A DNA stretch of 27,035 nucleotides, taken from positions 1 through 27,035 of IMG/VR virus record IMGVR_UViG_3300047455_000115, one strand, 5' to 3'. The notes under the pieces are model-generated. The model did not search any database. It saw only the letters and a program-made list of their open reading frames with translations, and was not told the DNA's origin. Both the position numbers and the translations under genes were made by a program. Below, one piece after another: positions 16,896-26,880 of the stretch (within the stretch, counting starts at the first letter, position 1; each line of letters begins with the position of its first letter). Source of the stretch: a virus.

Positions 16896-17230
16896 TTTTT
16901 TCTCCCTACTATTCGGTAAACCATGATGTCGTCGTCATAGGCGACGCCATTCAATGCGTCCTCAACTGCTTTCAAATAGTTAGTTGTATCGCCACGAAGT
17001 TTCGTGTCGCTCTCATCTAGTTCAGAGATAGTTACCTGTGTCCGTTTCGATGTGAACACACAGCTAATAGATATAGGTCCCTCAAATTTGGGGCCATCAT
17101 AATGATTGCGAATGTGTTCTTCGTGTTCCAGTGTGGACTTAGGAGTATACGTTCTGCCTCGTGCGAATCGAGGGCGACCTTTAACCTTTGGTTTCCCAGG
17201 AACAGTGAACTTATATGAGCGTTTAGTCAT
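16892..17230 (-). CDS. rusA: RusA-family Holliday junction resolvase
   Basis: Endodeoxyribonuclease that resolves four-way DNA junctions formed by recombination or replication. The N-terminus has the typical VPGKPKVKGRPRF then TYTPKSTLEHEE pattern. The catalytic region contains RGDTTNYLKAVEDALNGVAYDDD, where the spaced Asp residues and Lys correspond to the RusA metal-binding Asp and Lys. The 112 residues are close to the usual ~120. The start ATG is chosen because it follows GAGG with TACC spacing and overlaps the primase stop by 8 bases; an upstream in-frame start would lie far inside the primase. Confidence 0.85.
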   Translation of the reverse strand: MTKRSYKFTVPGKPKVKGRPRFARGRTYTPKSTLEHEEHIRNHYDGPKFEGPISISCVFTSKRTQVTISELDESDTKLRGDTTNYLKAVEDALNGVAYDDDIMVYRIVGRKK

Positions 17231-18146
17231 GGTACCTCGTTGTTTGGGCAGCCTTAGAAACAATATTTTGTAACTGTTTCTCTCTATCTGCTCTATCTGT
17301 GAACTTTCCAACCCTCTCGTCTAGCCGTCGCAGCCAGTCGATAGCTGCATCTTCTGAATAGTCTTGCCAAAGAAGACTGCTAGCAAAAGCGTACATCGCT
17401 TCTGATCGATCCGAGAACTCTGTTTGTTCCCAGATCGATCTTGCATTCCCCTTAAAGTTGGCATCTTCTCTGTTGCCTGGTTTGTATTGAGGGGCTTTAG
17501 GTTCCGTTGCCTCGAAGAATCGAAGCAACGAGCGAAGCAACCCTGGCGAAGTTCGTGATGCCCATGCAGCGTCAACAAATTCTTCAAGGGAGAAGAAAGA
17601 ATCTGTTTTCGATGGATCATAAACTTCATGGCGGCCAGGGTTACGGTGCTCAGGGTAAGGCAAACGCAAACAGTTGCCTAGAGCACCTTCGTTCAATGAT
17701 GTTTGTTTCGGATACACCTCTTTGGTGGGGACATCCACGACACGACATGCACCTGTCAGAGCTTTACGTGCCACGTTCGCTGCTACTGGTTCAGTTAAAT
17801 AAACCCAAACGTGGTAGCCCTTACTCTTAGAAGTTTCCTTCCAGCTTTGTATCCCTGTCTTCTCCAGAAGAGCGATCAGGTTATCTGCATGGACGCTGGA
17901 GTTTTCTCCATCGTCAAGGTCCACTGCACACCAGTTGACCATCCATACACCATTACGTTTCCATAACGGATATACCCCAAGTGCAAGTTTGCTATTGAGA
18001 TGTTCGTCTATGTACTGAAGGTATTCTTCTCCGTAGCCAAGAGCTACGTTTCCGTCTTCTTCTAACGGATGCACCCATTCTGTTACGTCGGCTAACGCTC
18101 CTCCTTCGTGAAGAGAAGCGAACCTTTCAAGAGTTACTCCACCCAT
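17223..18146 (-). CDS. Archaeo-eukaryotic-type primase (AEP superfamily)
   Basis: Makes primers for DNA replication. The catalytic signature of AEP/primase-polymerase proteins is visible: AVDLDDGE with Asp76 and Asp78, TSKSKGYHVWVYL with the basic/His112 (s-x-H) motif, and CLRLPYPEHRNPGRHE near 159-174 as a third conserved segment. The last 130 residues are helical (SEAMYAFASSLLWQDYSEDA), possibly a PriCT-like helicase-coupling domain. It overlaps the helicase gene by 13 bases, giving a coupled helicase-primase pair. No DNA polymerase is in the window. Confidence 0.8.
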   Translation of the reverse strand: MGGVTLERFASLHEGGALADVTEWVHPLEEDGNVALGYGEEYLQYIDEHLNSKLALGVYPLWKRNGVWMVNWCAVDLDDGENSSVHADNLIALLEKTGIQSWKETSKSKGYHVWVYLTEPVAANVARKALTGACRVVDVPTKEVYPKQTSLNEGALGNCLRLPYPEHRNPGRHEVYDPSKTDSFFSLEEFVDAAWASRTSPGLLRSLLRFFEATEPKAPQYKPGNREDANFKGNARSIWEQTEFSDRSEAMYAFASSLLWQDYSEDAAIDWLRRLDERVGKFTDRADREKQLQNIVSKAAQTTRYHD

Positions 18147-19114
18147 CTGTCATCCCCAGGAATATCGTTCTCATAATATTCTCGCACAAGACCACAGTTC
18201 GGGTCCATGTAATAGTCAATGGGTGGATCTGTGACCTGACAAGGTGGCCTCTTGTTTTTGCAGAGGTCAAGTGAGACAGAGACTGAATGTATTCTTCTTT
18301 CTGCGTCAGAAAGCTTTGGGTCATCTCTCCGTCGGAAAACATTGAGTTGCAGGATTGCGTATTCATCAGCATTGAATTTGCCGTCGTCCATTCCTCTTGA
18401 TGTGCCCCGAGTTGAGCCTTTGCCTGACTGGTGGATTAACCCAACGGGCAGGTTCTCTGTCTCTGCCCATTCCTTTAATCCTTTTAACACTGTTGATACC
18501 CCCTCGTATCCCGATGCTCCTGGGAGTTGTTCGAGGAAGTCAACCATTACGAACCGTGGCTTATGTTGCCAGTAATCTTCGCATTCTCTCATTGCGTTGC
18601 TCATGTCGTTAAACGACAGAGCATTAGGGAAGATTTTGATTCGATCAAGGAAGCCGTACTTGGCTTCTTGGATTTCGTTTATGACTGTTTGGTCTTGCGT
18701 CCGAAGAGCTTCTTCCACTTCAGCAAGATTTCGTTGATATAAGAGTGCATATAGTTTGGATACAACCAGGATCTCGGGTTCATCAGGAGTATAGATCACT
18801 CCGTAAAAGTCTGGATCTTCTAATAGGTTGCGTGCCATTGAGGAAAGCAGCACCGCAGATTTACCGCTGTGTGCTCTGCCTGTTACGACGAGTACGTCGC
18901 TAGGCCAGACTCCTCTCATGCGACTATCGATGTCTTGTAGTCCTAGATGGAAGCAGTCGTGGCTGCCTTTGGCGTATTCAACCCATCGGTCTACTGCCTC
19001 GGATGTTGGCTTAAAGAATTTGTACTGTGGCTCTCCCTCGGGGAGATCGATACCCGCAAGTCGGGCATCGATCTCCTCGGTGGTGAGGGCGACAGCTTCG
19101 TCACCCTCACTCAT
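18134..19114 (-). CDS. DnaB/RecA-like replicative helicase ATPase
   Basis: A hexameric-helicase-type RecA-fold ATPase lacking the N-terminal primase-interaction domain of DnaB. Walker A is GRAHSGKS (79-86), the catalytic acidic pair is TPDEPE (109-114), Walker B is FVMVDFLEQL (188-197), and the sensor-like residues are IHQSGKG (227-233). The C-terminal beta strands (SVSLDLCKNKRP) match the DnaB/KaiC end. The start ATG shares one base with the stop of the preceding gene (TGATG), and the stop lies inside the primase gene, so it is co-translated with both. Confidence 0.82.
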   Translation of the reverse strand: MSEGDEAVALTTEEIDARLAGIDLPEGEPQYKFFKPTSEAVDRWVEYAKGSHDCFHLGLQDIDSRMRGVWPSDVLVVTGRAHSGKSAVLLSSMARNLLEDPDFYGVIYTPDEPEILVVSKLYALLYQRNLAEVEEALRTQDQTVINEIQEAKYGFLDRIKIFPNALSFNDMSNAMRECEDYWQHKPRFVMVDFLEQLPGASGYEGVSTVLKGLKEWAETENLPVGLIHQSGKGSTRGTSRGMDDGKFNADEYAILQLNVFRRRDDPKLSDAERRIHSVSVSLDLCKNKRPPCQVTDPPIDYYMDPNCGLVREYYENDIPGDDRWVE

Positions 19115-19887
19115 CAGTTGCCCTTATAGGCAAATGCTTGTAGCTCTGCCCGACGAGCGATCCAATCCCATTCGATTGCATCTTGTTGGGATTCTCCAAC
19201 GGCTTGGTTCCAGACTTTCAATGGGACATTGCTGTCTCCATCGTTGACCCAGATCCCAACGTCGCGGGATGTTGCTACACCGATGTGTTCCAAAGCGTCC
19301 TTGCTTATCGAGAAGTTGGGGAAGTTCTTCCCTGTCTTCGTCACATCGGTTGATCCGTCAGCGTGTTCCTTGACCTCATACACCTTAAGGGTGTTGCCGT
19401 CATTGGTGTCCCACTGATTCGGATGGAACGCAAGCAAGTTGAAAGCAGCTTGACGTTCGTCTGCACCTTTACCTGTGCAAAACTCGGTGCGCTTATATGT
19501 GCGTCCACTCATCTTGCCACCAGCAGGTCCTGCTTGGGCAGGGGCAGGTGGTGCCGCTACTGAAGCTGCCGTAGGTCCTGACGGACCACTGACACTGGCA
19601 GTCTCTTGCGAGGCGGCGGGGCTTGGACCACTAGCAGGCCTGGAAACGCCGCTTTTCAAGCGTCGCATCACAACCCCATCGGGAGAAAGATCTATCTCCT
19701 GACCTGATTGTTTCAGGACCTCACCTTTAACTTGCTCAAATAAAGAGGATACTTCGGCAAGAATGCCTTCATCCCCCATTGATTCGGGAACTGCCCGCTC
19801 AATGGTGAGCGAGTAGTCCGCTGTTTCATATGGTGCTTCACTAACTTTCTGTGTGAAGCTAACTGTCACCTTTGCTGTGTCAGTCAT
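19114..19887 (-). CDS. Two-domain linker-rich protein between exonuclease and helicase (unknown)
   Basis: A 257-residue protein. The start ATG after an AAAGGTAGAG Shine-Dalgarno is preferred; the longer frame would overlap the exonuclease gene. The N-terminal ~65 residues are beta/alpha (TVSFTQKVSEAPYETADYSL, then SSLFEQVKGEVLK), a pattern I have seen in actinophage proteins adjacent to replication genes. A flexible Ala/Pro/Gly/Ser linker (about 85-125) follows. A second folded domain contains TFCT-like Cys/His-poor segments (RTYKRTEFCTGKGADERQAA, KVYEVKEH, NFSISKDAL, VGIWVNDG). Position and linker suggest an ssDNA-binding or helicase-loading accessory, but there is no motif that proves it. 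Confidence 0.5.
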   Translation of the reverse strand: MTDTAKVTVSFTQKVSEAPYETADYSLTIERAVPESMGDEGILAEVSSLFEQVKGEVLKQSGQEIDLSPDGVVMRRLKSGVSRPASGPSPAASQETASVSGPSGPTAASVAAPPAPAQAGPAGGKMSGRTYKRTEFCTGKGADERQAAFNLLAFHPNQWDTNDGNTLKVYEVKEHADGSTDVTKTGKNFPNFSISKDALEHIGVATSRDVGIWVNDGDSNVPLKVWNQAVGESQQDAIEWDWIARRAELQAFAYKGN

Positions 19888-19903: not shown

Positions 19904-20671
19904 CTACCAGGGATTTTCTCCGAGGTGTTCACCTCGGCATTTGCCTGCCTGCCAGACAGGACACCATAAAGGAGAGCAATGCCAGCCCTCCCAATTCTGT
20001 GGCCAAGTCTCTGCGTCCGACATTATTGTCGGGACCATCGACCAGCACAGTTCCAGAAAAGCATTCTTATGCTGTTCTGTTCTTTCGATCTCAATTATTT
20101 GAAGCTTCCCATTGGCCATCACACCGAAGTTGAACTCCGTTGCATCCAATGCCCAACTATAGGCATGAGATTGGATATCCCAACGCTTCTTCTCCCAAGC
20201 TTGGTACTCCCTGCCAGGATTCTTCCAATCCCACAGCGCTCCAGACTTATCTACCCAGTCCACAGTGCCAGTAAGAACTAGACGAACGTTACCCCTAACC
20301 CCTATCTCCCTCTCGAAAGGAGTTTCAACTCCAACAGGATCAAGGATGGGAAACAACTCGTCATACCAAACTTTCAGATTGGCTCGAACGACATCAACAA
20401 TCTTCTCGTACTCATGTCTCCACACTTCAACTTCAGATGAGTAACTAACAATAAATTCTTCTGCGACTTCAGTTATCTCTTCCAATGATGGGCGAGGCAT
20501 ACCCGCCATCATTAAACGTCCTGCGTATTCAATCGCTGTGTGGACAGCGTTCCCTCTAAGAAAATCTGTTGTTTCTTTTTGGGATACAAGTCCGAGGCGT
20601 TCCTGCCTCGCTTGTTCAGGGCATCTAAGGAATGTATTAATCCAACTCTGTCGTAAACGTATCTCAATCAT
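19904..20671 (-). CDS. Fe-S cluster PD-(D/E)XK exonuclease (Cas4/RecB-like)
   Basis: A 255-residue nuclease. Motifs in order: LRQSWINTFLRCPEQ with Cys17 (entry of the Cas4/AddB-type fold), GNAVHTAIE with His44, GTVDWVDKSG with Asp138, LWDWKNP with Asp148-x-Lys150 as the D-x-K active site, and WDIQSHAYSWAL with Gln167/Tyr171. Three C-terminal cysteines (Cys232, Cys237, Cys245 in WHCSPLWC and GKC), with Cys17, form the set used to bind a [4Fe-4S] cluster in this group. Such enzymes usually trim DNA ends for recombination. It is the first gene after promoter P1; its Shine-Dalgarno (CAGGGAGATAG) is complementary to a leader hairpin loop. Confidence 0.85.
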   Translation of the reverse strand: MIEIRLRQSWINTFLRCPEQARQERLGLVSQKETTDFLRGNAVHTAIEYAGRLMMAGMPRPSLEEITEVAEEFIVSYSSEVEVWRHEYEKIVDVVRANLKVWYDELFPILDPVGVETPFEREIGVRGNVRLVLTGTVDWVDKSGALWDWKNPGREYQAWEKKRWDIQSHAYSWALDATEFNFGVMANGKLQIIEIERTEQHKNAFLELCWSMVPTIMSDAETWPQNWEGWHCSPLWCPVWQAGKCRGEHLGENPW

Positions 20672-20674
20672 CTA

Positions 20675-20717
20675 TCTCCCTGTTCGGTGGAGCCGTCCCG
20701 CAGGGAGACACGGGACG
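20675..20717 (-). promoter_or_regulatory. Leader hairpin with loop complementary to the exonuclease Shine-Dalgarno
   Basis: On the leader strand a perfect 7-bp stem (CGTCCCG pairing with CGGGACG, positions 20694-20700 and 20711-20717) encloses a 10-nt loop containing TCTCCCTG. This is an exact complement to CAGGGAGA at 20675-20682, the ribosome binding site of the exonuclease gene. The arrangement fits an H-type pseudoknot that could hide the ribosome binding site. The pairing is seen in sequence; regulation is inferred. Confidence 0.45.
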
Positions 20718-20738
20718 ACCCAACCTTGTGACTTCTCC

Positions 20739-20759
20739 ATTTCTAACAGTGTTAGAAAT
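20739..20759. repeat. Palindrome site 1 of 3 (leader of the replication unit)
   Basis: Nine-base arms ATTTCTAAC and GTTAGAAAT are perfect complements around a 3-base centre AGT. The same arms occur at 25646-25664 and 26854-26880, each once in the leader of a leftward unit. The two-fold symmetry and sequence conservation suggest an operator for a dimeric regulator; an RNA hairpin with a triloop is the alternative. Confidence 0.75.
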
Positions 20760-20780: not shown

Positions 20781-20812
20781 ATGGGGGGAACCCTTTTGGG
20801 GGTTCCCCCCAT
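20781..20812 (-). terminator. Strong hairpin after the HTH gene, terminator-like
   Basis: Thirteen-base perfect arms (ATGGGGGGAACCC and GGGTTCCCCCCAT, 20781-20793 and 20800-20812) around a 6-base loop, 22 bases after the stop of the HTH gene at 20835. It is GC-rich and very stable. The following tract on the transcribed strand is only TTTG-like, so intrinsic termination may be inefficient; a processing or attenuation role is the alternative. It overlaps the start site region of P1. Confidence 0.55.
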
Positions 20813-20838
20813 TTTAACATGGATACAACTAAAGTCAA
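20811..20838 (-). promoter_or_regulatory. Promoter P1 (replication unit)
   Basis: On the minus strand: TTGACT (20833-20838), 16-base spacer, TAAAAT (20811-20816), giving a start near 20804 and a leader of about 130 bases before the exonuclease gene. The -35 contains the TGA stop of the HTH gene. The -10 abuts the terminator-like hairpin. Weaker than P2 by spacing. Confidence 0.5.
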
Positions 20839-25645: not shown

Positions 25646-25664
25646 TTTCTAACGCTGTTAGAAA
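25646..25664. repeat. Palindrome site 2 of 3 (leader of the DUF932 unit)
   Basis: Eight-base arms TTTCTAAC and GTTAGAAA are complementary around GCT. The next outer bases are G and T, so the perfect symmetry stops there. Its centre is 42 bases from the end of the P2 -10 box, the same as at P3, in the transcribed leader. Confidence 0.75.
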
Positions 25665-26853: not shown

Positions 26854-26880
26854 CCAATTTCTAACATCGTTAGAAATTGG
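26854..26880. repeat. Palindrome site 3 of 3 (leader of unit P3)
   Basis: Perfect 12-base arms (CCAATTTCTAAC and GTTAGAAATTGG) around ATC, the longest of the three sites and containing the common core ATTTCTAAC/GTTAGAAAT. The centre is 42 bases from the end of the P3 -10 box. Confidence 0.78.

Follow-up and report, generated by a model that had tools for sequence, protein, structure and literature searches.

The replication operon and its surroundings

The sequence analysed, referred to here as the window, is a record of viral DNA 27,035 bases long. On its minus strand is an operon opening with exo (19904..20671, start at 20671), the first gene after the leader described below, which encodes a PD-(D/E)XK nuclease with a match to the PDDEXK_1 domain (PF12705). 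Four cysteines, C17, C232, C237 and C245, are invariant in an alignment of 21 proteins and match the Cas4/AddB cysteine pattern; domain and cysteines together support its earlier designation as an Fe–S exonuclease, predicted to be of the Cas4/AddB-like type. Beginning with an ATG 16 nt after the exo stop is gene 2 (19114..19887), conserved beside exo, followed by genes identified by domain matches as a DnaB-like helicase (18134..19114), whose start overlaps the gene 2 end, and an archaeo-eukaryotic-type primase (17223..18146), and then by more genes including RusA, all in the same minus-strand operon. The gene 2 product has a Pro/Ala-rich disordered middle and no known fold; its AlphaFold model is weak (pLDDT 67.7), and its only clear structural relative in BFVD is a viral protein at 47% identity. 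A role for it as a single-strand-binding protein paralleling gp32 was considered and rejected, given the weak model, the lack of a PDB sequence relative below an E-value of 0.3 and a best Foldseek E-value of 1.6 against the PDB.

Preceding the leader is a sigma70-type promoter (20811..20838, minus strand) composed of TTGACT, a 16-nt spacer and TAAAAT preceded by TG, with 10 of 12 positions matching. Sites of this type are no commoner in the region than in shuffled sequence, and the match is weak by itself; relatives carry TATAAT-like hexamers at the same place. Directly upstream of the exo promoter, four of nine tested genes belong to the WhiB family (PF02467; relatives L026, L041, L042 and L057), which indicates actinobacterial hosts. 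Phages of ‘Ca. Actinomarinales’ that carry WhiB have been reported (PMC7771536). Both MAG contigs that encode a relative are labelled Actinomycetota, one of them Acidimicrobiaceae TMED189, MAG binning being weak evidence. The hosts of this virus family are probably marine Actinomycetota. Among named phages, tblastn gave a single match, MW202803, at 26% identity.

A leader hairpin with a loop complementary to the Shine–Dalgarno sequence

Read directly on the minus strand, the sequence before exo is 5′-GGTTGGGTCGTCCCG TGTCTCCCTG CGGGACGGCTCCACC GAA CAGGGAGATA G ATG. The 5′ arm (GGTTGGGTCGTCCCG, 20711..20725) and 3′ arm (CGGGACGGCTCCACC, 20686..20700) form a hairpin stem, S1, of 14 pairs and one mismatch, located by sequence, folding, scanning and comparison with relatives. 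Enclosed by S1 is a 10-nt loop, TGTCTCCCTG (20701..20710), containing an anti-Shine–Dalgarno (anti-SD) segment; this loop and the SD stretch CAGGGAGATA (20673..20682), both located by sequence, scan and relatives, would constitute the 5′ and 3′ strands of a second helix, S2, and are complementary over 10 bases, including one G–U pair. The preliminary description had recognized a 7-bp stem, CGTCCCG/CGGGACG, and an exact complementarity of the loop segment TCTCCCTG to CAGGGAGA. Both are present in the sequence, the former at 20717–20711/20700–20694 as the inner half of the longer stem; the distance from this inner stem to the SD, given there as 12 bases, is 11. Minimum free energy folding of 195 nt recovers the hairpin, and the leader as a whole has a z-score of −5.9 against 200 shuffles. 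The arrangement of hairpin and loop:SD complementarity ahead of exo is a real feature of this genome.

Conservation among relatives

A search of IMG/VR with the exo protein returned 93 stretches encoding a relative, and the best 80 of the 93 were retained. Among these best 80, the element is found at the exo start in 65; one (L007) is cut by a contig end, and L032, L036 and L069–L080 are without it. Searches starting from an alignment and from distant members, together with two MAG contigs, widened the set. Counting the window, it comprises 113 contigs or records, of which 74 carry the element, 37 do not and 2 are cut. This count omits loci that repeat a retained contig and six that have no exo 5′ end (L189, L191, L210, L221, L224 and L235). 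Of the 111 distinct leaders having an intact exo start, 74, among them that of the window, have a hairpin whose loop can pair with an SD-containing stretch downstream.

With lineages defined as clusters at 85% exo protein identity, the element occurs in 18 of 29. At 60% identity to the window or above there are 18 lineages; 17 of these have it, the exception being L032/L036; L188, at 56% identity, has it with an S2 of 5 bp, and the remaining ten element-free lineages are 36–53% identical to the window.

Among the element-free leaders, L032/L036 keep an SD-like stretch. L069–L080, L193–L196 and L219 have no SD and carry a −10-like CATACT hexamer 6 to 7 nt before the exo start; in these SD-less lineages we infer that the exo message is leaderless. 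Sister lineages (L069–L080, L193–L196 and L211–L219) are without the SD pseudoknot, and some retain a hairpin whose TCCTCTCC loop has nothing to pair with, which fits occlusion of the SD only as a relic. Retention of the gene with loss of both stem and loop complementarity, singled out in the preliminary description as telling against a pseudoknot, is thus seen in L032/L036, which bear an SD, and in the leaderless-looking lineages. The existence of such lineages means that the element is not obligatory.

Covariation in both helices

From lineage to lineage the sequence of S1 is largely replaced and its pairing retained. Across the 18 lineages 275 of 278 S1 cells are paired, and four to six standard pair types occur at each of the first 13 positions; this variety of pairs, not the paired fraction, is the evidence, because the stems were chosen for pairing. 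Complementarity of the arms is 0.99 within lineages as against 0.47 between them. Replaced stems are misaligned by MAFFT.

In S2 the core CTCC:GGAG is invariant throughout, and the evidence for covariation comes from the flanking pairs. With one leader taken per lineage, the base before the SD core forms C–G in 13 of 18 lineages and U–A in two; the second base after the core forms U–A, C–G and G–U pairs (7 of 17 cells unpaired), and the one following it forms C–G, U–A and A–U pairs (6 of 16 unpaired). SD-flank pairs are formed in 73 of 98 cases as against 64.2 ± 2.4 after shuffling, a value reached in 1 of 5,000 shuffles with relatedness ignored. In 36 leaders the mean energy of the loop with its own SD is −16.01, compared with −14.16 for re-dealt and re-optimized loops, and none of 20,000 permutations reaches the observed value; these permutation tests ignore relatedness, and since the leaders were pre-selected for pairing, re-optimization allows for selection only in part. 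In L047 S2 extends to 12 pairs, and in L040 to 9. Compensatory changes are thus found in both helices, relatedness being ignored and the SD core being invariant. The pseudoknot architecture proposed in the preliminary description holds up in homologous leaders: 18 exo lineages keep it, and both the stem and the SD-flank pairs show compensatory change. No conserved unpaired bases were found in the leaders of the 18 lineages; only the paired CTCC:GGAG is invariant.

Specificity within genomes

In a scan of both window strands for hairpins with loop:SD complementarity, scored as a sum from a simple stacking score in kcal/mol, the exo leader is the strongest match, at about −46.7 kcal/mol as against about −26 for the runner-up. 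When the 115-nt leader was dinucleotide-shuffled 5,000 times, 49 of the shuffles produced a match of any kind at much looser thresholds, the best scoring −36.0 compared with about −46.7. The element precedes exo in 19 of 20 relatives’ records and is absent from G005, a record of the leaderless type; the scan list merges identical elements, so that G003, G010 and G014 are represented there by the window, L084 and L083. No comparable element was found at other genes in the scan of the 20 relatives’ records, the two MAG contigs and the window. A phage-wide regulon was considered and rejected, other candidates in the 20-record scan scoring far lower. In L046 (235–323) a very strong hairpin lies before another gene, scoring −43 in a scan without the start-codon filter; its loop:SD helix is weak and includes G–U pairs.

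The pairing of each loop with its own SD is less exclusive. Across 18 genomes, 43 of the 416 SDs located elsewhere in the phage that carries the loop pair with it equally well or better; at most one other SD does so in only nine of the 18, and the own SD, within the top tenth of partners overall, is strictly the best in five. Mimicry of the 16S 3′ end was also rejected: the loops of most lineages share with it only the CTCC core, and their flanks follow their own SD.

Inverted repeats and palindromes in the leaders

Directly after the −10 hexamer is a long perfect inverted repeat, IR1 (20783..20810, minus strand), identified by sequence and folding and present in most lineages, where its sequence differs. 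In the window it reaches into the −10, and the expected transcription start falls inside its 5′ arm. IR1 could be a stem at the extreme 5′ end of the mRNA, or a DNA site. It was rejected as a terminator for upstream genes, as no U-run comes after it and it directly follows the −10.

Between IR1 and S1, a palindrome search located TTTCTAAC-N3-GTTAGAAA (20740..20758, minus strand), one of three perfect copies in the window (20740–20758, 25646–25664 and 26858–26876; none expected), each behind a TTGACT promoter; the leader copy is probably a separate regulatory site. Relatives (loci L085–L117) have palindrome families of their own, with phage-specific sequence; each record has 3 to 13 copies, often placed a short way before an SD and start. 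Families with at least three copies are found in 11 of 21 groups, G004 and G009 being less convincing. These families resemble an operator system of the immunity type, or a stoperator-like one, in which each phage has sites of its own; in some cases the pairing continues into the flanks, and the palindromes may also act as RNA hairpins.

A pseudoknot proposed to gate exo translation

By A-form modelling, S1 and S2 could coexist in 36 of 36 leaders, but in 24 of these only with one to five S1 pairs open in the best model, chiefly because the linker cannot reach from the full stem to the SD; the linker of L042, L048, L057 and L058 contains an additional palindrome. A crude energy model favours the pseudoknot over the hairpin alone in all 36, by 1 to 17 and on average 10 kcal/mol, these energies being rough and the pseudoknot penalty of 8 a chosen value.

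We consider it probable that a pseudoknot in the leader, acting in cis, covers the SD and controls translation of exo, and perhaps of the replication genes that follow in the operon. This leader would fold into an H-type pseudoknot, with the long hairpin as S1 and the pyrimidine loop paired to the SD as S2. Formation of S2 would exclude the 30S subunit and keep exo translation low, and opening of S2 would free the SD. The short linker would impose two competing states, with the SD free or covered, and the balance between them may be shifted by a phage protein or by folding kinetics during transcription. We infer from the comparative data that the RNA is made and folds in this manner, with the consequent drop in translation and shift of balance. 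Repression may spread over the operon because 16 nt separate the exo stop from gene 2, whose end is in turn overlapped by the start of the helicase gene. The virus thereby likely throttles the rate at which a DNA-cutting enzyme is synthesized.

Two specific forms of SD occlusion can be distinguished. In the first, to which we give appreciable credence though short of even chances, no ligand takes part, and low or delayed exo translation is fixed by thermodynamics and folding kinetics. Conservation of base pairing alone and the competition of S1 with S2 in most leaders suit such a device; its retention over 18 lineages seems costly for a fixed brake, for which a weaker SD could suffice. In the second, which we regard as possible and put forward tentatively, a phage replication protein (exo or gene 2) would lock the SD through the pseudoknot as an autogenous operator. 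The occurrence of one element per genome, always before exo, points this way, as does the precedent of T4 gene 32: as PMC3014915 describes, a leader pseudoknot there, lying some 67 nt before the start, is the nucleation point for binding of gp32 across the ribosome binding site. The exo leader resembles that of gene 32 in T4, T2 and RB69 in combining a phage replication gene, a leader pseudoknot and translational repression (here proposed). It differs in having the SD itself within the second helix and in lacking a known protein partner; moreover, the gene controlled in the gene 32 type encodes a single-strand-binding protein, whereas the first gene here encodes a PD-(D/E)XK nuclease and gene 2 has no recognizable single-strand-binding fold. 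The leaders also offer a protein no conserved bases to read except paired ones. A narrower version, in which the SD is locked by pseudoknot-bound Fe–S exonuclease or operon partner, perhaps depending on Fe–S-cluster state, would represent a new class of viral translational operator and is, in our estimate, unlikely. If it were true, nuclease supply would follow single-stranded DNA or the iron/redox state, and the operator would be held by structure alone, with stem and SD helix competing.

That the loop acts in trans, antisense to the SDs of other phage messages, is very unlikely. The other SDs that match or beat that of exo would be its candidate targets; covariation of the flanks is with the own SD, which ranks in the top tenth overall and first in the five genomes noted above.

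Scarcely probable is a metabolite riboswitch of the preQ1 or SAM-II type, although the architecture, with the SD in the second pseudoknot helix, is the same. In the SAM-II riboswitch the second pseudoknot helix pairs with the SD. In preQ1 class I type III and class III riboswitches, the hairpin loop or second helix pairs with it, as PMC11625349 describes. The conserved part of these riboswitches is a ligand-binding core, whereas in the exo leader only base pairing is conserved. No Rfam family reached its gathering score in the window or in ten relatives, and no match was credible at E-values up to 5, the weak matches falling far below gathering scores. Coupling to a metabolite, raised in the preliminary description, is disfavoured by the absence of a conserved, unpaired aptamer-like core.

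Equally improbable is a DNA-level feature or chance, with the inverted repeats serving as protein sites and the SD complementarity a by-product: the leaders do hold palindromes of their own as possible DNA sites, but the crossed pairing, the replacement of stems and the covariation of loop with SD point to RNA and not to a DNA site, and the shuffles fall short of the observed score.

Relation to other leader pseudoknots

The rpsO operator is bound by S15 and acts by ribosome entrapment. The STAXI motif (Rfam RF01728) differs from the exo leader in having two or three tandem copies of its knot, the exo leader being without an Rfam match. STAXI pseudoknots lie near single-strand-binding and other DNA-handling genes, according to PMC2864571, and PMC3014915 mentions control of rpsO translation by an mRNA pseudoknot at the gene start. 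The exo leader shares that placement of an mRNA pseudoknot with rpsO and differs in that no ribosomal protein gene is present. In a literature search in which subscription papers were partly covered, no title or abstract describing this leader was found. The conserved, predicted pseudoknot leader is of a known structural kind and, so far as these searches show, new as a family.

The element would add a further phage leader family, unrelated and deeply conserved, that stands before a replication operon in viruses whose hosts are probably abundant uncultured marine Actinobacteria. Its 18 lineages, with stems replaced and pairing kept, provide a clean comparative set for testing how an SD-covering knot tunes translation and how such a knot is lost where the mRNA seems to turn leaderless.
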